64,000 nucleotides of DNA from Leptolyngbya sp. 'hensonii' (GTDB lineage Bacteria > Cyanobacteriota > Cyanobacteriia > GCF-001939115): assembly GCF_001939115.1 (NCBI RefSeq), contig NZ_MQTZ01000041.1, positions 436,816 through 500,815 of the forward strand, written 5' to 3'. A program made the translations under genes and the position numbers. Under the pieces are notes generated by a model. The model was not told the DNA's origin. It worked only from the letters and a program-made list of their open reading frames with translations, and searched no databases. This document shows, one piece after another, positions 2,765 to 21,185 of the stretch; the first letter of the stretch is position 1, and each line of letters opens with the position of its first letter.

Positions 2765-5353
2765 CTACTGCGCCTCCCCAATCAGCTCGAACGGTGCCCA
2801 AGCGATCGGGTCGGGATACTTCTGTTTCGTGTCCAGCATCGCCTGTCGTAATGCCGTCGCCTTGTCCTGGCCCTGGTTCAGATAGCGATAGAAGCTCGTC
2901 ATCAACTCAGCCGTCGGCGCATCCGGCACCTTCCAGAGTGAGACAATGACACTGGGCACGCCTGCTGTGATCAGGGCACGGGATAACCCGATGACTCCAT
3001 CCCCTGTGATCTTGCCCCGACCCGTATCACAGGCACTTAGCACCACCAGTTCTGCTTTCAGCTTCAGGTCTAGCAGTTCGTTCGCACTCAACAACCCGTC
3101 ATTGGGCTGGGAACTGCTCGGACCCAGGGCGATCGCTCCGGGGACGCCTCCCTCCCCAATATCATCCAACAGCCCATGGGTGGCCAGGTGAATAATCCGG
3201 GCTTTGGGCATCCGGTTTATCACGACGGTTTTGGTCGCCGCTCTGCCAATCAAGGCAGGCACCTGCAGCAGTTGGGAAATGGCCCTGACTTCCTGCTCAG
3301 CTCCCGCAAGGGCGGTGAGGGGTTGAGGGGGCTCACCGATTTTGAAGACCACCCTGGGCATGGTGGGATTGCCCACCAGCAGGATATCTCCGGTCCGGGT
3401 GGCCGATCGCTGCTGGCGGGTCAACTGCAACACCTGAATCGAAGGCGCAATCCCGATCGTATGCTTCTCCAACAAATACTGTCCCTGGTCATCCTGCAAG
3501 GCTGCAAAGGGCAGCAGGAACAGGGAGCCCTGGGGCACGAAGATCACCCGGTCGTTCGGATTTTTGGGCAGCAGGTCGGCGATCGGGTCAATCAGGAGCT
3601 TGTGCAACTGTTGCAGGTATTCATTCTTGATCGTGGTAATCGGGGGTTGGCCAAACTGGCGATCGCCCTGGGCCAGATTGAAGGTCACGGGTTGACTGCC
3701 CCTGGATAGGACAGACTCCTCACAGCCCACTGCCCCCAGGCAGCGGGCTGTCGTCACCAGATTGGCCAGGGAAGTTTTCTGCTGCTGCAGGGGTTTGAGG
3801 TCCACCTGACGAAAAGCCACCTCCCCCGTAGGCTTGACCACCCAGATGAAGAGTTGCTCATCGTAGAGATTGGCATACTCCACCAGGGTTGCCTTTTGGG
3901 TTCTGGCCACCTGCTGGATAGTAGCGATCTGGATGGGTTGAATTGTAAGTGCCGCTTGCCCCTGGGTGCGCTGGGCTAATAGCTCGGCAAAGGCCCTGGC
4001 CCGTCCCCGTTCGGCAATCTCCAGGGCGGGTTCCACCTTATTCTGGGCAATCAGAACTTCCTGTAGGGTGTCATAGGGGTTGCGCTGGATATCCGCGATC
4101 GAAATTTTCTGAGCATCTTGCAACTTCTCCCTCAGAGATTCAAAGATTTGAATGGATTGTATGAGTTGGGATTCTGCTTCAGCTAACCGTCCTGCCTGGA
4201 ATGAAGCCGCTCCCAGATTACTAAGGGCCTTACCCTCTCCCAATCGATCTTTAATTTCTCTGGCAATGGCTAACCGCTGCTGCAAATAGTCAATGGCTTT
4301 GCCATGATTCCCCAGAGCATGATAAGCCGCCCCGAGATTGCCCAGGGTAACTCCTTCCCCCCGACGATCGCGGATGGCCCTGGTAATCACCAACCGTTGT
4401 TGCTGGTAGTCAATTGCCTTGGCGTAATCTCCCAGGGCATAGTAGGCAACCCCCAGATTGCCCAGGGCATTGCCCTCCCCCAATCGGTCTTTGATTTGTC
4501 TGGCAATGGTTAAAAGCTGTTGAGAGGAGTCAATCGCTCTGGTGTAGTCTCCCATCGCTTGGTAGGTAATCCCCAGATTGCCCAGGGCATTGGCTTCGCC
4601 TGCCCGGTTTTTGATTGCTCTCGAAATGCTTAAAAGCTGTTGATAGTAGTTATGGGCTTTGGCATAGTCTCCCAGGATATAGTAAATATTCCCCAGGTTA
4701 CCTAGGGATTGTCCCTCGCCCAATCGGTCCTTAGTCTCCCTGTCGATGGCTAAACCTTGTTGCTGATAGTCGATGGCTGTGGCATATTCCCCCAGTGCAT
4801 AGTAGGTATTGCCTAGATTGCCCAGAATGGCCCCTTCACTCCGGCGATCGTTGAATTTCCTGGCGATGACTAAACTCTGTTGATAGTAGCCAAGGGCTTT
4901 GGCATAGTCTCCCAGAGAATGGTAAGCAAGGCCCAGATTACCCAGGGCAATGCCTTCGCCCTGACGATTGTTGCTAGCCCTGGCAACGGCTAGCCGTTGT
5001 TGCTGGTAATCAATGGCCCTGGCATAGTTGCCCATGGCATCGTAGACAATCCCCAGGTTACCCAAGGCTGCCTCCTCTCCCCGCCGATCCTGGATGACCC
5101 GATACAGACTTAGGGCCTGCTGCCAGGAACGGAGGGCTGGTTCAAACTGGCTCCTATGGAATTGCTCAATTCCCTGCTCCAGTAGTCGGTCTGCTTCGAC
5201 TTTGCGGGGGTCTTGCGCCTGGGCCAATTGTAGGGGTGAGCCGGGGCGAAGCTGGTCTGTCGAGACAGCAATAGCGAGGGCGGGGCTGAGGCCCAGCAAC
5301 AGGGCCAGCAGGGAAGCGGAACATCGGGCCAGACCCGAAATCTGCAGGGACAT
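2765..5353 (-). CDS. Secreted TPR-repeat protein with C-terminal CHAT (caspase-like) domain
   Basis: This 862-residue protein begins with a Sec-type signal peptide (LLALLLGLSPALAIA). About nine TPR units of 40 residues follow (roughly 60-390), with the recurring pattern LGNLGxxYxxLGDYAKAIDYQQQ. The C-terminal third is a CHAT domain with the expected dyad: His near 726 in LATHGLL and Cys near 773 in LSACDTGRG. CHAT domains are clan CD peptidase relatives, and many cyanobacterial genomes carry secreted TPR-CHAT proteins of unknown target. The TPR units are similar at DNA level with a 120-bp period, suggesting recent duplication or gene conversion. Protease activity is inferred from the dyad only. 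Confidence 0.9.
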   Translation of the reverse strand: MSLQISGLARCSASLLALLLGLSPALAIAVSTDQLRPGSPLQLAQAQDPRKVEADRLLEQGIEQFHRSQFEPALRSWQQALSLYRVIQDRRGEEAALGNLGIVYDAMGNYARAIDYQQQRLAVARASNNRQGEGIALGNLGLAYHSLGDYAKALGYYQQSLVIARKFNDRRSEGAILGNLGNTYYALGEYATAIDYQQQGLAIDRETKDRLGEGQSLGNLGNIYYILGDYAKAHNYYQQLLSISRAIKNRAGEANALGNLGITYQAMGDYTRAIDSSQQLLTIARQIKDRLGEGNALGNLGVAYYALGDYAKAIDYQQQRLVITRAIRDRRGEGVTLGNLGAAYHALGNHGKAIDYLQQRLAIAREIKDRLGEGKALSNLGAASFQAGRLAEAESQLIQSIQIFESLREKLQDAQKISIADIQRNPYDTLQEVLIAQNKVEPALEIAERGRARAFAELLAQRTQGQAALTIQPIQIATIQQVARTQKATLVEYANLYDEQLFIWVVKPTGEVAFRQVDLKPLQQQKTSLANLVTTARCLGAVGCEESVLSRGSQPVTFNLAQGDRQFGQPPITTIKNEYLQQLHKLLIDPIADLLPKNPNDRVIFVPQGSLFLLPFAALQDDQGQYLLEKHTIGIAPSIQVLQLTRQQRSATRTGDILLVGNPTMPRVVFKIGEPPQPLTALAGAEQEVRAISQLLQVPALIGRAATKTVVINRMPKARIIHLATHGLLDDIGEGGVPGAIALGPSSSQPNDGLLSANELLDLKLKAELVVLSACDTGRGKITGDGVIGLSRALITAGVPSVIVSLWKVPDAPTAELMTSFYRYLNQGQDKATALRQAMLDTKQKYPDPIAWAPFELIGEAQ

Positions 5354-5630: not shown

Positions 5631-5721
5631 AAGCTTAAAACCCTTGGACCGTAGGCTGTTTGCCACTTAGTACAAGGGTTCTGATCGCGCCTTTGAGGAT
5701 ACCCCCAGGGGAATTCGAATC
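5631..5721. repeat. Left attachment repeat (attL)
   Basis: This matches 21044-21134 over 91 bp. It has 16 identical bp (AAGCTTAAAACCCTTG), a diverged 15-bp loop, then 60 identical bp ending in the tRNA-Glu 3' part (5700-5721). The flanking arms AACCCTTG (5639-5646) and CAAGGGTT (5673-5680) form a hairpin that was probably the original terminator of the tRNA gene before integration displaced it. Confidence 0.9.
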
Positions 5722-7036: not shown

Positions 7037-8929
7037 TTATTTAACCTCTGGGGGTGACAGGTCTGTGACTCTGGGGGTGGGCTTACCTCGGTTGATGCGG
7101 GAATTTGGATCTTCTAGATCCTGTACAAATTGCTCCCACTCATCCCGGTTGTCCCGCCGATCTCCGTCTACCAGTTCAACCAGAGATTTGATAGCACTGC
7201 CAGCCCCATGGGTGCGATCTGTTCTATAAAAGACTGCCTTGATAATCCCGGCTGCAAACAGCAGTTTGGCGACCGCGCCAAACAGGGTATCCTTTTCTTC
7301 GTTCTCCCAGCCCACAATTTTTTGCTTTGACTGTTGCAGCAAATCTTCCAGGGAATCCAGCTTTGTGGGATTGACCGCGTAATCAATCTCTCTGGTTTTG
7401 TGGTTCCCCCGGTATCCCAAAAATTCAGCATTCCCCCTGGCGTAGTCTTGGGTGACGATAGCTGCATTCTTGGTTGCCACAATTTCGGCTAAAACCCTGG
7501 TAAGCATGTTGATGCTCAGGTCGGAGTCGATCGCCCCGTTCAGGGTTAGTCCGTAAATTTCCGCTAAGGCTTCTGAGATGTTTGGCAAGCTAATCCTCTT
7601 GCTCTGATTGCCTGACTTGGTTGGGTCGGTATCTTGAATTTCTACCTCTACGGGGAACTGCCCTACGACGCCATCCATGGAGCCCACAAACCATGCCAGC
7701 CAATCAGCAAGGCTCTCAATTCTGACTGGGCTATCCTTTCCGGTTAGCAGGGTGGCTGGAAGCGTGGCCGGAAGCTGGTCAGAGCCAACTGCTTTATTTA
7801 ATTTCCGCAGTTGAGCCAGTATCTGACGCATCAATTCTTCGTTCTCATTGGAAGTACTACAGCAGCAACTCATGCATACCTCGCAGTCATCTTTTGGTGG
7901 GGGTGGGGGTGGCCCCGCTTTAACAAATACAGGAGTGCAGTTCTCCTGTTTGAACAGGGCAAAGGTTGTTTGCAGGTCCATGATATTGGGGGTCCAATAC
8001 CGCTGTCCCTGGTAGGGATGCAGCCCCTGTCTGTAAGCCCAGATCTCAAAACTGTGGGTCATCTGGCATGACTCAATCAGCTCTTTGACCGAGAATCCCA
8101 CAGCATAGAACGGTAGATCGTATCTAACCCAAACACTGGGCATTTCGGTCGCCAGACACTCTGAGTAATAAAGCGGATCTGGATAGGTGACAAACCGGTA
8201 GAGCCCCTTACACAGAAAAAAGAGTGAAGCCCCTTTATACAGACCGTCTGGGGATTCAGAAGTCTCTAGCCTCACAGCTTCAACAGGTCCGATCAGTCCT
8301 TCATCACCCGAGGGTACAAGGAAGTTACTTAAAAGCTGAAAAACTGACGTGAAATTGCCGTTAGGCCCAGCCCCGTACTGAGCGTACATCCTGAGCACGA
8401 TCTTGTAGATGAAACACTTCTTCTGCCTCTCAGTATTGAATGTGGCCCCAGTCGTAAAATCTCTGGGGTCAAAGAAGTCAGAACTGATTCCCCCGCCCAG
8501 GTCTTTATCTGGGGGTCTGCACTCCGGCCTTCTCCAACAAATCGTATAAGGGGGAAGACTCACGTAGGCGAGACTGGGAGCGATCGTGAGGCAAATTTCA
8601 CAATCACTGGCTGAAATCAGTGGATCTAGACCTACCCTATCCAGACTAATGCCCGACCCCCCGCAGTAGGGAGAGTCAGGCCATCTGTCACAGTCCCTGG
8701 GATCTACTGGCTCCAAAGGAGTTTGATAGAAGCCCGACCCCCCGATCGGTGTAAGCCCACCTGTAACCGGTGGCCCCTGTTGCTGAAAGCGATCAAGATC
8801 ATCTAGTGGCCCAGAGTCATCACTATCTCTAAAATCGGGTTCATCCCGGCTTCTGGGGGTTGTCCGGTTCGGCCCCCGATTCCGTTCTCTCCTAAATGAC
8901 CCCCCTCTTGCCCTGCCACCGGTAGCCAT
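7037..8929 (-). CDS. Large element protein with Arg-rich N-terminus and Cys cluster (630 aa), unknown function
   Basis: No family is recognised. The first 45 residues are rich in Arg and Gly and could bind nucleic acid. Cysteines recur in the first 400 residues (CEICL, CWRRPEC), and a dense CEVCMSCCCS cluster lies near residue 356 after a proline run, suggesting metal binding or disulfides. The C-terminal 230 residues look alpha-helical (MRQILAQLRKLNKAVG onward). An upstream TTG at 8947 is possible, but ATG at 8929 overlaps the previous stop as TGATG, which fits coupled translation. It is the largest protein of the leftward operon and a candidate structural or genome-associated protein by position only. 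Confidence 0.7.
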   Translation of the reverse strand: MATGGRARGGSFRRERNRGPNRTTPRSRDEPDFRDSDDSGPLDDLDRFQQQGPPVTGGLTPIGGSGFYQTPLEPVDPRDCDRWPDSPYCGGSGISLDRVGLDPLISASDCEICLTIAPSLAYVSLPPYTICWRRPECRPPDKDLGGGISSDFFDPRDFTTGATFNTERQKKCFIYKIVLRMYAQYGAGPNGNFTSVFQLLSNFLVPSGDEGLIGPVEAVRLETSESPDGLYKGASLFFLCKGLYRFVTYPDPLYYSECLATEMPSVWVRYDLPFYAVGFSVKELIESCQMTHSFEIWAYRQGLHPYQGQRYWTPNIMDLQTTFALFKQENCTPVFVKAGPPPPPPKDDCEVCMSCCCSTSNENEELMRQILAQLRKLNKAVGSDQLPATLPATLLTGKDSPVRIESLADWLAWFVGSMDGVVGQFPVEVEIQDTDPTKSGNQSKRISLPNISEALAEIYGLTLNGAIDSDLSINMLTRVLAEIVATKNAAIVTQDYARGNAEFLGYRGNHKTREIDYAVNPTKLDSLEDLLQQSKQKIVGWENEEKDTLFGAVAKLLFAAGIIKAVFYRTDRTHGAGSAIKSLVELVDGDRRDNRDEWEQFVQDLEDPNSRINRGKPTPRVTDLSPPEVK

Positions 8930-9949: not shown

Positions 9950-10312
9950 ATGCCAAGCGATTTAACTTTTAGTGATGCTCAAATTGCCTCCGGTGTGTCT
10001 GGAACCTTTACCTATGACGCTGGTAATGACGATGTCCTGATCTCCGTCAAGAAAATCACTGGCGATAGCTATGCAGCCCTTACAGACACAGGGGTAATTG
10101 AATTTGTCTCCAAACTCCTGAACCTGTGCGAAAAGGCTCAAACCTCAGTGAATGCAACGGCTGTGGCAGGCTCCCGGTTGAATGCTTTCCAGTCCCCGGT
10201 CTATGGAGTCCCCAGTCAGGAAGCGAATGGGGACTTTTACGCCAGTGTCACCTACACAATGATTGCCAGGGCTCCATTAAGCCTGAATGATCCGATCGGA
10301 CCTGTTATCTAA
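9950..10312 (+). CDS. Small element protein A (120 aa), paralogue of the protein at 12049
   Basis: First gene of the rightward operon. It is clearly related to the 114-residue product at 12049. Both carry TGD(S/T)xxALTDTGV(I/L)EF, an AQ(T/E)(S/T)VN segment, and end in (P/V)xNxxIGPVI / NTAVIVGPNI. No family is recognised. Small size, duplication within one element and a position heading the operon make these two the best candidates for abundant repeating structural subunits. Its TAA overlaps the next ATG (TAATG at 10310-10314). Confidence 0.7.
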   Translation: MPSDLTFSDAQIASGVSGTFTYDAGNDDVLISVKKITGDSYAALTDTGVIEFVSKLLNLCEKAQTSVNATAVAGSRLNAFQSPVYGVPSQEANGDFYASVTYTMIARAPLSLNDPIGPVI

Positions 10313-11841
10313 TGGGCATCGTAATTTCGGCTAAGAACCTGCTTAGCCGTGCAACACGGCAATCTGCAACCGGAAACTCTTCTGGCCTGCGTAAAATAAA
10401 CCTGTTTTCAGGCGCAATCACCAAAACGGAGAAGGGCGGCCTGATCCAGCAAATATTTAATGCCGGAGGTAAGTTTATCTCCTGGATTGCTGGGGAAGCA
10501 CTTAAATTTCTCTCCTGGTCTATTACTGGGATTTGGGATTGGGTTGTAGAGAAGACAATTGAGCTATCTCAGTTCAATTGGAATGCTTCGGACCAGGAGT
10601 TGCAGGTAAACCTGCAGTCTGTTAATGAGCAGTTGGGTTCGATTTGGGGGGGATTAACGGGCTCAGGGATTGGCTGGCTAGCTGCCATGGGCCTGGGATT
10701 TGGCGTCTCCCTGGTAGTACCGGTGATCGGCGGTCCCATGCTGGCAAGGTCGATCGCTGGAAAGGTCGCTATCGAAGCTGGCCAGGATCTGACTAGTCGG
10801 CTATTTGCCGCCATATTTCAGACTTTTAATGTGGGGGCAACTAATGCAACAGTCAACACCTACATCAATTTCCGTAAATGGCTGAAAGACCCAAATAACA
10901 AGCTATTGGATAGCCTGTTCCCCAAAGAGACTGCCGCAAAGATACGGAAGGATTGGGGTAAGCAGGGTGGCCCCCAGTGGACGATCGCTAAGGCCATTGA
11001 CGATAAGGTCAACTCTATCAAAAACCCCCTACTCAGGGGTTTCGTACAGGGTTTAACCTCTGAGTCCTTTGAAAGTTTCATTGAGGGTGGGTATGTTGTT
11101 GCCTATGAACTTGAGAATGCCTATGAGCAGGCGAAACTAGCTAGGCAGACTTCCCGTGGTGGGGAGAAGGAAATTATTCTGGTTCCTGATCGGGAAGTAC
11201 CAGAAGAGACAATAGTGTTAACCGGCAACAAGGAAACCACAATTCAGGAGGTACAAACCGCCCTCACCTCCCACCGGCTTGTTTATAACCGGGATGTCGG
11301 GATGATTGCCGGGGAAGCCTACCGGGATGACGCCCATGCCCCCGTTGCATCTCTGAGGCAGTTAAAAATAGTCTTCAAGGCAAAGGCTAAACCTCCATAC
11401 CGGGATGCTAAAGGTAATCGCCCCCGTGAAACCTATTGCACCATCTCTGATGTGGATCGCGGGTTGACCTGGGGAAAGGTCAAGTTTGCCGCTAAGCATT
11501 GGACATGGGGCAAGTGCTATGCAGTAGGAAGGTTTGCTAGTCGCCGCAAGATGGTTGTCTACGGTGCAACTGAAACAGAGGCAGAGAGAAAACTTAAGGA
11601 ATTGGCGGTTCTAAGCTCATCCCGGTTGCTTACCGTTCGCACAGGTACAGAGCGGGAAGTTGATGCCAGGAAACGTAAAAAGCCGGTCGAGATGTATCCG
11701 GCCTACGCAATCCTAATCACGCTATCCCCATCCCCTACCGGAAAGGTTGTAACCATTGACGGCAAGCAGTACAAGCGTGAGCAAGTTCGCGTCAACCTGT
11801 ACCCAGATGAAGAACCAAAAGACTCTCCAAAACTGAGCTAG
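10312..11841 (+). CDS. Membrane-associated element protein with glycine-rich hydrophobic hairpin (509 aa)
   Basis: No family is recognised. An amphipathic aromatic stretch (about 50-85, FISWIAGEALKFLSW) is followed by a strongly hydrophobic, glycine-rich pair of segments (about 115-155, GIGWLAAMGLGFGVSLVVPV). The C-terminal half is soluble and basic, with several Lys/Arg-rich blocks and an aromatic core (KHWTWGKCYAVGRFASRRK). No Walker A motif is present. It could insert into the host membrane during entry or particle assembly, or sit in a particle's internal membrane; both are inference. It overlaps the upstream stop by one base and is followed by a terminator. Confidence 0.7.
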   Translation: MGIVISAKNLLSRATRQSATGNSSGLRKINLFSGAITKTEKGGLIQQIFNAGGKFISWIAGEALKFLSWSITGIWDWVVEKTIELSQFNWNASDQELQVNLQSVNEQLGSIWGGLTGSGIGWLAAMGLGFGVSLVVPVIGGPMLARSIAGKVAIEAGQDLTSRLFAAIFQTFNVGATNATVNTYINFRKWLKDPNNKLLDSLFPKETAAKIRKDWGKQGGPQWTIAKAIDDKVNSIKNPLLRGFVQGLTSESFESFIEGGYVVAYELENAYEQAKLARQTSRGGEKEIILVPDREVPEETIVLTGNKETTIQEVQTALTSHRLVYNRDVGMIAGEAYRDDAHAPVASLRQLKIVFKAKAKPPYRDAKGNRPRETYCTISDVDRGLTWGKVKFAAKHWTWGKCYAVGRFASRRKMVVYGATETEAERKLKELAVLSSSRLLTVRTGTEREVDARKRKKPVEMYPAYAILITLSPSPTGKVVTIDGKQYKREQVRVNLYPDEEPKDSPKLS

Positions 11842-11862
11842 AAACCATCAAATTTCCCATGC

Positions 11863-11890
11863 AAAAAGACTGCATAGACAGGCTTTTTCT
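11863..11890 (+). terminator. Probable intrinsic terminator after the 509-aa gene
   Basis: The hairpin AAAAAGACTG / CAGGCTTTTT has one internal mismatch, a 6-nt loop and a run of T on the 3' arm, 22 bp after the stop codon. It separates the first two-gene unit from the second structural unit beginning at 12049. Confidence 0.5.
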
Positions 11891-11957
11891 TATGCTCGAT
11901 TTTGCGGCACATAATATGCCATGCCATGAACTGCAGGCGATTTTCCCGAATGAAAAC

Positions 11958-11969
11958 CGGTGATCACCG
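11958..11969. promoter_or_regulatory. Palindrome CGGTGATCACCG upstream of the second structural unit
   Basis: A perfect 12-bp palindrome lies 80 bp before the start at 12049. Its core GTGATCAC uses the same half-sites (GATCAC / GTGATC) as the repeats in the initiator gene at 18515-18592, in inverted order. It could be an operator read by an element-encoded regulator or by the initiator; this is inference. Confidence 0.35.
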
Positions 11970-12048
11970 ATTAAGTATTAATACAGATGTTCTATCTCTG
12001 CGACTACTTACACAATCGGAGTATCACCCATGAGAGGAAATACTCACT

Positions 12049-12393
12049 ATGGCCGCTAAAACTGATTTGACCTGGCAGGAATTGCAGGATGAGTTACCCG
12101 CCAATTCAATCACCGTGTCCGGTGGAAAGGTTGTGATTGATGTTGGAGTACTGACTGGGGACACCGTTGATGCCTTGACTGACACCGGGGTGTTGGAATT
12201 TCTCTATAAGATCCGGGAAGCTGCAGGTTTAGCCCAGGAAACTGTAAACGAAACTCAGGTAGATGGTGAGAAGCTCGATTCCTTCCCCGGCTTCACCTTC
12301 TCCCCTGTGATCGATGGCTACGTTGAAGTCAGTCAGACCTCATCCTTTAAGCTACCTGTCAACACTGCTGTAATCGTTGGTCCCAATATCTAA
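12049..12393 (+). CDS. Small element protein B (114 aa), paralogue of the protein at 9950
   Basis: Homologous to the 120-residue protein at 9950 across the central and C-terminal region (ALTDTGVLEFLYKI; ending NTAVIVGPNI). The N-terminus differs. A GAGAGGAAA ribosome-binding site lies 8 bp before the ATG. No family is recognised. The pair could be major and minor subunits of the same structure or the product of a duplication with specialisation. The next gene starts 52 bp downstream in the same direction. Confidence 0.7.
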   Translation: MAAKTDLTWQELQDELPANSITVSGGKVVIDVGVLTGDTVDALTDTGVLEFLYKIREAAGLAQETVNETQVDGEKLDSFPGFTFSPVIDGYVEVSQTSSFKLPVNTAVIVGPNI

Positions 12394-13619: not shown

Positions 13620-14369
13620 ATGGCAGCTATTAACTTTTACTCGATCGATGATTTGGCATCCCTGTTAGGGGGTGCCATTCCCGCAGTAGGGGTTGACGCA
13701 TACCTGGTTAAGGTGGGAGCTTACTCTGCCCATGCTGGGGATAGGATACTGGCCAGCCTGGGGGCTAATTGGACCCTAACCCTTCCTGCCTCACCAGAGG
13801 AAGGCGATTTTGTGGAAATCGAAACCATGAAATCAAACTTCCTCTTAACAATCGCCCGCAACGGCAATCTCCTGAACGGGCAGTCCCGTGATGGGCTTCT
13901 GCGGGGCGGAAATCACCGGGTGCTGATCTACTCAGGCGCGGTTTCAGGGTGGTACTGTGCGCCCAACGTGATAAACCTGTCCTACCTCAAGACAGTTACC
14001 GCAAGCGGCTGGAGTCCCACACCAGGGCATCTCAGCTACGCAACCGATGGAAACATCGCAACGGCTACCGATCTGGGCTCCCCCCCAAACGACAACGTGA
14101 GATGTCGGTTTGTCGTCGATCTGGGTGTAATTAGTTCCGGGACCTTCACCGCCACGGTTGTAACTGACCAGGGTGGCGGTGGGTTTCAACTGGGAATCGA
14201 GCATTCCCCGAATGGAAGTTCCTGGACCCAGTTAACGGAAGACATAATTGCTGTCACTAAAAATAGCTATGTTTTTTCGGCTGCGGTTAACAACAGGTAC
14301 ATCAGTTTCTATGCTGTGCAACTTAGTGGAGATGCCCGACTGGGTATCCAGGAGTTCGAGCTTTTATGA
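13620..14369 (+). CDS. Adhesin/fibre-like element protein with discoidin-like C-terminus (249 aa)
   Basis: The N-terminal half (about 30-110) resembles fibre tip modules that end virion proteins (GANWTLTLPASPEEGDFVEI, then DGLLRGGNHRVLIYSG). The C-terminal half (about 120-249) has the rhythm of an F5/8-type (discoidin-like) carbohydrate-binding sandwich: a start TASGWSPTPGHLSYATDGN, a middle FVVDLGV and an end YAVQLSGDARLGIQEFEL. I infer binding to a surface sugar. Together with the 313-residue protein it gives the element two candidate receptor-binding proteins. Its stop overlaps the next gene by 4 bp. Confidence 0.6.
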   Translation: MAAINFYSIDDLASLLGGAIPAVGVDAYLVKVGAYSAHAGDRILASLGANWTLTLPASPEEGDFVEIETMKSNFLLTIARNGNLLNGQSRDGLLRGGNHRVLIYSGAVSGWYCAPNVINLSYLKTVTASGWSPTPGHLSYATDGNIATATDLGSPPNDNVRCRFVVDLGVISSGTFTATVVTDQGGGGFQLGIEHSPNGSSWTQLTEDIIAVTKNSYVFSAAVNNRYISFYAVQLSGDARLGIQEFELL

Positions 14370-14941
14370 CACCCTTTGTAACAACGATCGCTCAATCGCC
14401 CCCACCCCCCCAGCTACCCCCGGTATCCCCTGGTCTGGGGGATTTTGCCGCAATCTCCCTGATCGTTGCAGCGATCGGGACAGTGGCAAAACAAGCGTGG
14501 GAGTACTTTGTCCAGAAGGATAAGCAAGAGTCGGGTTTGACTGACACCCTGATCAATGACCTGCGAAACAACCAGGCGAAGATTATCTCCGACGTGACCC
14601 AGGGAATGGATCGGCTGGCTGCAGCCTACAAGGAAACAGCACTGGAGAGTCGCGCTGACTTTAGGTCGGCGATTGAGGAACTAAGAAAGGGGGAAGCCGG
14701 TCTGCAGGGTGCCGTAGTGCACCTGGGGCAGACAATCGGCCAGGATGTTCAGGCAAACCTTAAGACTCAAACACTGTTGTACGAATCCCACCGGAGTGCA
14801 ATGGAGGAATTGAAGTTCAATTTAAGAGCTCTACACGAGAGAGCGGATCGGTGGGAAGTTGTTCTTAAGCAGCTCTGCGAGGGTAATTGCAACTACCCAG
14901 CAGACCGACCAAATCGGAACAGCTCGGACTTTCCAGGTTAA
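14366..14941 (+). CDS. Membrane-anchored coiled-coil element protein (191 aa)
   Basis: A proline-rich N-terminus (PPPPQLPPVSPG) is followed by one hydrophobic segment (about 25-45, FAAISLIVAAIGTVAKQAW). A long helical, probably coiled-coil region runs from about 50 to 175, and a short Cys pair CEGNC lies near the end. A single membrane anchor with a long coiled coil is compatible with a lysis accessory protein or an injection/tethering protein, but no family is recognised. ATGA overlap with the previous gene indicates coupled translation. Confidence 0.62.
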   Translation: MTPFVTTIAQSPPPPQLPPVSPGLGDFAAISLIVAAIGTVAKQAWEYFVQKDKQESGLTDTLINDLRNNQAKIISDVTQGMDRLAAAYKETALESRADFRSAIEELRKGEAGLQGAVVHLGQTIGQDVQANLKTQTLLYESHRSAMEELKFNLRALHERADRWEVVLKQLCEGNCNYPADRPNRNSSDFPG

Positions 14942-14953
14942 AAGGAGGCAATT

Positions 14954-15250
14954 GTGAGAGTACCCCTTGGTTATGTGCAAGCAGTTTCGTTGGCTATTAA
15001 GTGCGAAGCAATTCGCGACATTGTAGAAAAAGCCAAAGCAGACGGAAAAGTATCTACAGAGGAGTGGATATGCATTTGTATTGCTGCCACTCAAACAGTT
15101 TTAGGGATATTCGGTGAACAAATTCCGTCTGAGGTTGTGAGTGATATTCAGGGGATAGGTAAGGCTCTGAATGATATTGGCGATCTCAATGCTGAAGGCT
15201 TAAACCAGACGGTTAAATCCCTTCAGGAGGTGACTTGGAAGGAATCCTAA
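14954..15250 (+). CDS. Small helical element protein (98 aa)
   Basis: A strong AGGAGG lies 6 bp before a GTG start. The sequence is mostly alpha-helical (AIRDIVEKAKADGKVSTEEW) and has a hydrophobic segment with two cysteines (ICICIAATQTVLGIFG). It could be membrane-associated. No family is recognised. It is the last gene of the rightward block; the neighbouring gene on the other strand ends 2 bp beyond it. Confidence 0.6.
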   Translation: MRVPLGYVQAVSLAIKCEAIRDIVEKAKADGKVSTEEWICICIAATQTVLGIFGEQIPSEVVSDIQGIGKALNDIGDLNAEGLNQTVKSLQEVTWKES

Positions 15251-15969: not shown

Positions 15970-16344
15970 TTATTTACCTTCAGCTACTGTGGCAAGGCGA
16001 TCTCCTACAGCCCTAACAACTTTAGCGAACTTGTCATCAGGAAGACATTTAATTTGCTCAACCATCTTGTCAATGCCGGACATAGGGGGCAGCTCTCCCC
16101 CGGAAAGATAGGTGATCATCTCATCCAAAGTGTAACCAGCGCTAGCGGCAATCTTTAGGAGGTTCCTAGTATCTGGGACAGTCGATTGATCTTCCCAGTC
16201 ACGCACTGTAGTTCCTGCAACCCCTAATTTCCTTCCGTATGCTCTCTGACTTAACCTTTGCGTAGAGCGAACACCCCTGATCAAATTTGCCAGCCTTTCT
16301 CTGGCTTCAAGGCTTAATTCCACAGTATTGCTGTACACACACAT
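15970..16344 (-). CDS. XRE-type HTH transcriptional repressor
   Basis: A helix-turn-helix of the Cro/CI type occupies about residues 20-65 (SQRAYGRKLGVAGTTVRDWE), followed by a helical region likely used for dimerisation. At 124 residues it is in the range of phage repressors without a self-cleavage domain; I see no Ser-Lys peptidase motif. I chose ATG at 16344; a GTG sits one codon upstream. It is divergent from the RHH gene at 16451, across a 106-bp region with repeated half-sites, the layout of a lysogeny switch. Confidence 0.82.
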   Translation of the reverse strand: MCVYSNTVELSLEARERLANLIRGVRSTQRLSQRAYGRKLGVAGTTVRDWEDQSTVPDTRNLLKIAASAGYTLDEMITYLSGGELPPMSGIDKMVEQIKCLPDDKFAKVVRAVGDRLATVAEGK

Positions 16345-16450
16345 CACTTCCTGCTACTAAGCATAGATTACCCACTGGTGTAAGTAACTCACAGTAGTTG
16401 ATTGCTAAAAACAGCAGTTAACTATATGCTGTGATTGAACAGCATTTTTG
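16345..16450. promoter_or_regulatory. Divergent promoter/operator region of the element switch
   Basis: This region lies between the XRE repressor and the RHH gene. It contains ACAGCA and TGCTGT arms around GTTAACTATA (about 16412-16433), and a third half-site in GAACAGCAT just downstream. Three half-sites near two divergent starts suggest repressor binding. The exact -10/-35 boxes are not clear to me. Confidence 0.45.
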
Positions 16451-19497: not shown

Positions 19498-19866
19498 TTG
19501 ATTTGTGTTACAGAAATCAAACGTGGAGGGGCACGTCAGGGGGCCGGTCGTAAGAGAGCTGATGATCCAACCGTTGTTATTCGTGTCCCCAGCAGTCAAG
19601 AGAAGGCTTGTAAAGAGTTGGTTCAGTTCGGTTTTACTTCTGACCAGGTGAGATTTGCTTACTCTCTAATTATTGTCAAACAAACAGGGCTATCCATTCC
19701 TGGTGTACCGGTTAACCTTAAAGACATCCACGCCTATGGCTTCCAGTGGATAAATTACCAGCATTTTGAATCCGCAGTGATGATGATGGCCGCCAAGAAC
19801 GCCAACAAATCAATGAGAGTCTGTAGGGGCCTTGTCAGTGATTGGGCTCTACAGATTGAGTGGTGA
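19498..19866 (+). CDS. Element protein with GGARxGAGRK motif (122 aa)
   Basis: The start is probably TTG at 19498, directly after the previous stop, with GGAGGTGAGG about 5 bp upstream. The N-terminus RGGARQGAGRKRADDP matches the basic GGARxGAGRK motif seen at the start of many phage and plasmid proteins, including DNA-binding ones, with VVIRVPSSQEKACKELV following. The rest is not recognised. It overlaps the convergent integrase gene by 18 bp. Confidence 0.6.
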   Translation: MICVTEIKRGGARQGAGRKRADDPTVVIRVPSSQEKACKELVQFGFTSDQVRFAYSLIIVKQTGLSIPGVPVNLKDIHAYGFQWINYQHFESAVMMMAAKNANKSMRVCRGLVSDWALQIEW

Positions 19867-20958
19867 TGGAGGTGTGGGGCGATCGCTCCTCATCATCAGA
19901 GTCTCGAAGGCTCTTTGATGATGGCGATCGCTAATCCAATGATGGTATGTCTCTGTATGGACCTGGACAGAGTGCCCCATCTGCTGGGCAGCCAGGGAGA
20001 TATCTAGACCAAATTCCATTGTTCTGATGGCCCAGCAATGACGCAAATCGTAGAGCTTGAAGGGAAGCTTATGATCTGCGAAATATCTTGTTGCAGAGTG
20101 CCCAACCTTGTCATTACTCCGGCTTAGGTCGATAGGGGGAAGGTTCACCTTTGATAAATGGAATTGGTCAAACCATTCCGGGTAACAGGGCCACACCCTT
20201 CGCGTCCCGGTTTTGGTTTTCTCCAACACTGTGATCACCTGGCTACCCTGGCTCAGCTCCTGCAGGTCTAACCGAAAGACCTCATGGGGTCTCAATCCAT
20301 AAGTGGCCAGCATCCCATACACCCATCGCCATGCCTGATTTTTTAGGCGATAGAAGACTTCGGCAATCAGCAGATCGTCAGGCAGGTCTCTGGGGGATAC
20401 GCGCCTGGGCGAGTAGTTGCCCGATAAGCTGGCTGGGTTAAAGTCCAGTCCAGCAAATTTAGCTATTGCTCCGGCTGCCATACAAGCCCGCTTTCTGGTT
20501 TTGGTATTGGGGACTGTCGCCAGAATTAATGCTTGCAGTAGCTCACTGGTGAGCTGTTGATCCTGGGGGAGGTTCTTCAGAGGTTTCCAGTAATCCCCTT
20601 GCCAGGTTGTCTCTGTTCCCCCGGCTGCCAGGTAGTGAGCCTTGAACTCTTCAATCAGAGTTGAGGCTGTACGTGATTTTTCCCGTACCGGTTCCAGATA
20701 GGGAACCCAGGAAAATTCCTTGCAGGCCAGCAGGCCCCCGATCGCCTTGGCCTCTGCTTCTGCTCTTTTTACTCCGGCTGCATTGGCGTAAATCCCCAGG
20801 GTAATCCACTGCTGGTGGGGGTGAAGCTTGCCTGACCCAGGTTTAGGGGGAAAAGTGCCCCTCAGGTAAAGCCGATCGCCTGTTTTGGTGAGACGAACTC
20901 CCACATTGGCACTTTTTAACCGGGTGTTTGCCGCTGCGATCCGTGCGCCTATGTCCAT
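19849..20958 (-). CDS. Tyrosine-family site-specific integrase
   Basis: The protein is 369 residues. The N-terminal region is a DNA-binding arm/core domain. The C-terminal catalytic domain shows the first Arg (TYGLRPHEVFRLDL, about 223), HxxR-like LYDLRHCWAI (about 315), a GHS segment (QQMGHSVQVHTETY) and the nucleophilic Tyr near 342. It lies next to tRNA-Glu and reads away from it. The start codon is 6 bp from an arm-type site, so the integrase may repress its own promoter. This is the enzyme expected to integrate and excise the element. Confidence 0.93.
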   Translation of the reverse strand: MDIGARIAAANTRLKSANVGVRLTKTGDRLYLRGTFPPKPGSGKLHPHQQWITLGIYANAAGVKRAEAEAKAIGGLLACKEFSWVPYLEPVREKSRTASTLIEEFKAHYLAAGGTETTWQGDYWKPLKNLPQDQQLTSELLQALILATVPNTKTRKRACMAAGAIAKFAGLDFNPASLSGNYSPRRVSPRDLPDDLLIAEVFYRLKNQAWRWVYGMLATYGLRPHEVFRLDLQELSQGSQVITVLEKTKTGTRRVWPCYPEWFDQFHLSKVNLPPIDLSRSNDKVGHSATRYFADHKLPFKLYDLRHCWAIRTMEFGLDISLAAQQMGHSVQVHTETYHHWISDRHHQRAFETLMMRSDRPTPPSPLNL

Positions 20959-21043: not shown

Positions 21044-21112
21044 AAGCTTAAAACCCTTGCACTGTAGCTTCTTCGCCACTTAGTACAAGGGTTCTGATCG
21101 CGCCTTTGAGGA
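21044..21112 (-). terminator. Element-supplied terminator of tRNA-Glu
   Basis: On the minus strand, downstream of the tRNA, an 8-bp stem (AACCCTTG / CAAGGGTT) with a 26-nt loop is followed by TTTTAAGCTTTC. The stem is identical in the displaced host copy at 5639-5680 while 15 bp of the loop differ, which supports selection on pairing. Confidence 0.5.
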
Positions 21113-21134
21113 TACCCCCAGGGGAATTCGAATC
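21044..21134. repeat. Right attachment repeat (attR)
   Basis: The 91-bp counterpart of 5631-5721. It overlaps the 3' 22 nt of tRNA-Glu (21113-21134). The part from 21044 to 21112 is supplied by the element and carries its own copy of the terminator: arms AACCCTTG (21052-21059) and CAAGGGTT (21086-21093), with a loop diverged from the left copy. Confidence 0.9.
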
Positions 21135-21185
21135 CCCGTCGCCTCCGTGAAAGGGAGGTGTCCTAGGCCTCTAGACGATGGGGGC
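21113..21185 (-). tRNA. tRNA-Glu (anticodon UUC)
   Basis: On the minus strand the 73-nt gene begins GCCCCCATCGTCTAGAGG and contains the anticodon loop CCTTTCACG with TTC. The T arm is GGGGATTCGAATTCCCC and it ends TGGGGGTA; CCA is not encoded. All four arms pair. In cyanobacteria this tRNA also feeds tetrapyrrole synthesis through glutamyl-tRNA reductase. The 3' part is the integration site of the neighbouring element and remains intact. Confidence 0.95.

Follow-up and report, generated by a model that had tools for sequence, protein, structure and literature searches.

What are two small, related proteins doing at the heads of two rightward gene blocks in the genome of the cyanobacterium Leptolyngbya sp. 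'hensonii'? Within the window analysed here, a stretch of 64,000 nucleotides of contig NZ_MQTZ01000041.1, these proteins, P120 (120 residues, positions 9950-10312, + strand) and P114 (114 residues, 12049-12393, +), had been described in the initial annotation as paralogs and proposed as major and minor subunits of a shell, tube or pilus. The explanation that we favour, with about even confidence, is that they are paralogous small structural subunits of a cyanobacterial integrative element that is temperate and virus-like. This 15-kb element may represent a type of cyanobacterial virus that has so far escaped recognition.

Two paralogous proteins at the heads of gene blocks

The proposed paralogy is borne out by a single BLASTP comparison of P120 with P114 (38% identity over 96 residues, E=2e-14), and a search of the whole host genome with P114 recovers P120 (E=1.4e-9), the two being the only matches there. 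The TGDxxxALTDTGVxEF pattern is indeed shared (TGDSYAALTDTGVIEF and TGDTVDALTDTGVLEF are both found in the pair) and forms part of a family core in which TGD-xxx-ALTDTGV-x-EF precedes a helix that closes with AQ-xxx-N, the N being invariant in 24 sequences. The ends of the proteins had been characterized less accurately: the N-termini do not simply differ, since both sequences start with DLT[F/W], a feature conserved throughout the family, and the supposed common C-terminus amounts to little beyond GPxI, the strong similarity lying in the centre (approximately residues 29-80 of P120).

Each paralog does head a rightward block. The P120 gene overlaps the P509 gene by 1 bp and opens one of them, and the P114 gene, preceded by a gap of approximately 207 bp, leads the genes encoding proteins of 195, 83, 124, 249, 191 and 98 residues; in most relatives, the position directly upstream of the P195 gene is held by a family member, as it is here by P114. 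Promoter-like sites upstream of the P120 and P114 genes show no excess over chance.

A prophage-like element at a tRNA gene

A 60-bp direct repeat, identical in its left (5662-5721) and right (21075-21134) copies, flanks the window element and defines a unit of 15,413 bp. The right repeat overlaps the 3' part of a tRNA-Glu gene (21113-21185), adjoined by a tyrosine integrase gene (19849-20958, -; Phage_integrase, E=2e-7) whose full-length relatives are 51-54% identical. With an integrase and attachment repeats at a tRNA gene, this is a prophage-like integrative element.

Its two gene blocks run outward. The leftward one comprises a tail-fibre-like protein of 313 residues (P313, 5826-6767, -; PHROG tail fibre matches), the core protein P636 (7037-8929, -) and P283 (9105-9908, -), the divergent neighbour of P120, the starts of the latter two having been corrected by comparison of relatives to the ATG at 8929 and 9908, respectively. 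The rightward order is P120-P509, then P114-P195-P83-P124 and the 249-, 191- and 98-residue proteins. The core protein P509 (10312-11841, +) has a hydrophobic N-terminal half and is a possible membrane or DNA-delivery protein; P195 (12446-13033, +), also core, is a tandem duplication of a domain of about 90 residues and a candidate main coat protein. It is adjoined by a small acidic core protein, P83 (13011-13262, +), which in several relatives is also followed by P124 (13240-13614, +). Further downstream, the 249-residue protein (P249, 13620-14369, +), whose faint resemblance to discoidin (F5/8 type C) stays below the cut-off, might act in attachment; the 191-residue protein (14366-14941, +), with a hydrophobic segment and a coiled coil, is holin-like by position, has a homolog in the relative L025 and a positional counterpart in L026 with a holin-like PHROG match; and the 98-residue protein (14954-15250, +), with a homolog in L074, closes the block. 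A helix-turn-helix regulator (15970-16347, -) is matched weakly (E=1e-4) and has related ORFs in 15 loci.

The window P195 is closest to that of elements with two P120-type copies (54-58%) and the window P509 to that of single-copy ones (36-40%), so that, their nearest relatives belonging to different element types, the window element looks recombinant. Just outside it lies a CHAT-TPR gene (2765-5353); a TPR gene is likewise found outside L074 (12505-14636) and a weak TPR relative flanks L024, although such genes are common and this flanking may be due to chance.

Distribution and mobility of the relatives

A search for ALTDTGV-type proteins in cyanobacteria, which had been suggested as a check, does uncover a family: within the class, 15 of 194 genomes, the window genome among them, have relatives of P114, and those of P509 occur in 57 of 390 cyanobacterial genomes and 39 of 160 genera. 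When the phylum is sampled evenly, 27 of 386 genomes, in 21 of 143 genera, are matched by the P509 profile, and 14 of 386 by that of P120. The matches are all cyanobacterial, other phyla having been covered via public phage, plasmid, viral and genome collections only. Among the hosts with names are Pseudanabaena, Tolypothrix and Allocoleopsis, and in Tolypothrix sp. PCC 7601 and Allocoleopsis franciscana PCC 7113 the related elements are plasmids.

Several of these elements are caught in mobile states. The ends of contig G031:C15 overlap by 127 bp and a core gene reads through the join undisrupted, which makes the contig a circle of 12,548 bp; two complete plasmids of approximately 20.8 kb both encode P636 and P509, and one of them P195 as well; and in genome G172 two identical tandem copies (L078/L079, unit of 15,374 bp) share attachment sites. 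In other relatives, the element has tRNA-Thr, -Leu and -Met genes as neighbours. The closed circle, the plasmids and the tandem insertions show that elements of this group are mobile between chromosome and plasmid and replicate extrachromosomally. Regarding the definition of a phage-plasmid, circles and plasmids are thus at hand, and the virion genes are putative.

A conserved module with variable small proteins

The families P636, P509, P195 and P83 form the core across loci, and the module P636-P509-[small subunit]-P195-P83 is kept in dozens of genera. At least one of the small families (P120, S125, S167 and S101/S272) is present in 33 of the 36 loci having both P509 and P195, usually one per element, P120 being the commonest (18 of 36); L036, L086 and L110 are otherwise complete elements devoid of all of them. 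Profile comparison lends no support to S125, S167 and S101 as remote P120 homologs and, lacking such detectable homology, they may be functional alternatives to it. Pairs of small paralogs recur (S125 in L026, L074 and L109; a 195-residue protein in L110 and L114), which fits subunits with divided roles. The host genome itself contains a second, diverged element, the aforementioned L074 (G000:C10, a 14.6-kb contig), with an S125 pair and S167 and without P120. A conserved basic protein of 65-100 residues, S67, is encoded near P509, P195 or P283 in 22 loci (e.g., L031, 10910-11113), with no homolog found in the window.

In a sister group (L025, L026 and L157-L164), which includes plasmids of 15.6 and 37 kb, P120 and/or S125 appear in the same gene layout, and a long tape-measure-like protein replaces P509 and P636. 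Adjacent proteins of 122 and 125 residues in L157 (11516-12265) are possibly paralogs again.

Among the core neighbours, P195 gives a confident model (pLDDT 90.9, pTM 0.84) with two copies of one alpha/beta domain, its halves matching each other with 98% probability; there is a single-domain version in L144, and no match in the PDB was found by Foldseek. In L033, a 12.5-kb circle, the 195-residue gene is read in two overlapping frames (11183-11778), by either a frameshift or a sequencing error. P509 is split between its two halves into separate genes, sometimes on opposite strands, in L117, L118, L120-L124, L126 and L037. P636 is conserved over its C-terminal ~270 residues, its N-terminus being very variable and fibre-like.

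Fold, selection and history of the P120 family

Monomer structure prediction, the other check proposed for the pair, was carried out with AlphaFold2 for P120 and resulted in a confident fold (pLDDT 88.7, pTM 0.77), which runs from a short helix through a beta hairpin and a helix of 25 residues to extended hairpins at the C-terminus. No significant match was found by Foldseek among BFVD viral models or in the PDB; faint matches (probability 0.13) to the stalks of trimeric autotransporters were discounted as evidence. The earlier statement that no known family could be recognised holds for Pfam, PHROGs and PDB sequence profiles, in which P120/P114, P509, P195, P636 and P283 show only coiled-coil or fibre similarity. 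A match to a regulatory or enzymatic family, which would have spoken against structural subunits, was looked for and not found either.

P120 is under purifying selection (dN/dS ~0.12 at dS 0.83 in the closest pair). In the family tree, P114 groups with copies in L118 and L022 (support 93/85), not with P120, which argues against a recent duplication inside the window element and indicates a duplication older than it; a history of two clean ancient clades, one per copy, is possible (AU p-values of 0.29 and 0.06). In the two-copy elements (the window element and L021-L024), copy 1 precedes P509 and copy 2 precedes P195, and these fixed places suggest separate roles.

Is either of them the main coat protein? 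Strong ribosome-binding sites precede only 5 of 35 family members (the start codons being partly unsure) and the family is absent from several elements, for which reasons a universal main coat protein is unlikely to be found in P120/P114. An accessory or alternative subunit role is probable for both and, given that P195 is kept more widely, minor, vertex or adaptor subunits are more likely than a sole shell protein; the near-universal P195 would be the better candidate for the main coat.

Searches for virus hallmarks

The 147 proteins of seven delimited elements include matched integrases, primase/helicases, RepA-type ATPases, regulators, fibres and endolysins, and a phage lysozyme (E=6e-49) is encoded just downstream of the core in L022. 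No terminase appears in any of the 15 Pfam families matched by these proteins, nor among the listed 25 of the 50 PHROG families that they match. Portal and HK97-fold major capsid proteins gave no sequence match, and the folds of P120 and P195 (the two modelled) are unmatched and are not jelly rolls. Neither a packaging ATPase nor a known capsid fold was found; no P-loop protein is encoded in the window element, and the ATPases of other elements are of the replication type. Six proteins searched against INPHARED phages had no match, nor did IMG/VR yield any, the latter scans relying on short exact peptide patterns that are insensitive and may miss relatives. No description of these elements was found in the literature searched, to which bioRxiv preprints did not belong and few subscription papers did.

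What the pair and its element may be

The evidence counted in favour of structural subunits of a virus-like element is the attachment repeat with its integrase, the circle, the plasmids, the tandem pair, the conservation of the core, the fibre-like and endolysin genes, the purifying selection on P120, the confident but matchless folds of P120 and P195 and the recurrence of paralogous or internally duplicated small proteins at the same places. Against it count the lack of terminase, portal, packaging ATPase and known capsid fold, the fact that some otherwise complete elements have no P120, and the absence from the phage and IMG/VR collections, although the IMG/VR scans are insensitive. In the proposed mechanism, the conserved module would be expressed late and build an extracellular particle, with P195 as main coat or tube subunit and P120/P114 co-assembling as small subunits in separate positions, P114 alongside P195, and P120 alongside P509, the latter two at a vertex, neck or entry apparatus. 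P636, P313 and P249 would be host-binding fibres, the hydrophobic P509 might help DNA to cross the membrane, and cells would be opened by element-coded lysis proteins, where present. The initial proposal is supported in part, by the paralogy, the missing match by family or fold, the virus-like setting (fibre-like and holin-like proteins, an integrase, endolysins in relatives) and the recurring small pairs. The pilus finds no support: no pilin family (Pfam) or assembly ATPase was seen, and both sequences start with DLT[F/W].

Could the element be a phage satellite instead, which integrates and replicates by itself and has its DNA packaged by a helper cyanophage, the module (P120/P114 included) altering or replacing parts of the helper particle? 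The size of 7-21 kb, the integration at tRNA genes, the fibres and the lack of terminase and known capsid would agree with this, and the tycheposons of Prochlorococcus provide a precedent in the phylum. However, Terminase_6N and Terminase_3 are unmatched in 14 of the 16 element-bearing genomes and lie far from the element in the remaining two, so that by these families no helper is resident (an external one is possible); the relatives encode their own endolysins and fibres, and no small terminase or known capsid-redirecting satellite gene was seen. We therefore consider a satellite unlikely. A headless tail- or tube-like particle, i.e., a bacteriocin or delivery device borne by a mobile element, with P120/P114 as tube or adaptor subunits, would account for the abundant fibres, the missing head gene and the tape-measure-like protein that the sister group combines with the same layout and with P120 and/or S125. 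Nevertheless, that likeness was judged by eye (coiled coil, hydrophobic stretches) on an 844-residue protein with no PHROG match, tail tube, sheath and baseplate are unmatched, and the module is accompanied by integrases and replication genes that headless tailocins do not need, all of which makes such a particle distinctly improbable.

The pair might also be non-structural, i.e., accessory proteins (a chaperone, a superinfection or anti-defence factor, or a regulator) that stand at block starts by chance. Their position, small size, usually weak ribosome-binding sites and absence from some elements are compatible with it, but type-A elements carry the family inside the conserved module, normally adjoining P195 or P283, other small families replace P120 near-exclusively, no regulator or enzyme family is matched, and the predicted P120 fold mixes a long helix with extended hairpins; we regard this possibility as slight. 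Beyond the preferred reading of P120/P114 as structural subunits, the wider claim that they constitute a lineage of cyanobacterial viruses which is widespread and so far undescribed, with virion folds not seen before now (P120, P195) and a genome loaded without a recognised packaging motor, is put forward only tentatively.

If the module does make virus particles, a cyanobacterial virus group present in about one seventh of the relatives' genomes searched has been overlooked, because terminase, portal and capsid markers are what detection depends on. Such a group would contribute coat proteins whose fold is unknown and raise the question of how, with no known motor, DNA of 12-20 kb enters a particle. 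A satellite, on the other hand, would be an unusually rich one. Either way, testable strains exist in Tolypothrix sp. PCC 7601 and Allocoleopsis franciscana PCC 7113.

Comparison with known systems

With the temperate phages and prophages of the Caudoviricetes the element shares the tyrosine integrase at a tRNA gene, fibres, holin-like and endolysin genes, a regulator and a putative late-gene block; unlike in them, a terminase, a portal, an HK97 capsid and a recognised tail core are all missing, and its core proteins lack PHROG, Pfam and PDB relatives save for fibre or coiled-coil similarity. Phage satellites (of the PICI type, and tycheposons) are equally small, tRNA-integrated and devoid of a packaging motor, whereas this element has its own fibres, lysis genes and a large, unmatched putative structural module, recognised redirecting genes are not seen and most hosts lack a terminase. 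The small non-tailed Corticoviridae, Tectiviridae, Plasmaviridae and Pleolipoviridae resemble it in genome size (approximately 10-15 kb), circular forms, the integration of some members and a hydrophobic, here putatively structural, protein, but it shows neither an A32/FtsK-type packaging ATPase nor any sequence match to their proteins, and the P195 and P120 models fit no solved capsid fold. Cyanobacterial tailocins and contractile injection systems, such as the thylakoid-anchored one of Anabaena (PMC8894136), also bear fibres, in contrast to which the present system is element-borne and has no sheath, tube, baseplate or AAA+ loading match. Phage-plasmids come close in that relatives exist as circular replicons of 12.5-37 kb as well as in integrated forms, although no capsid or packaging gene is recognised in the element; a phage-like Microcystis plasmid has been so named for its tail-tip and minor-capsid similarity (PMC12510456). 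The putative structural module went unrecognised by every library searched, and the element that carries it, integrating, plasmid-like and phage-type, is of a known kind.
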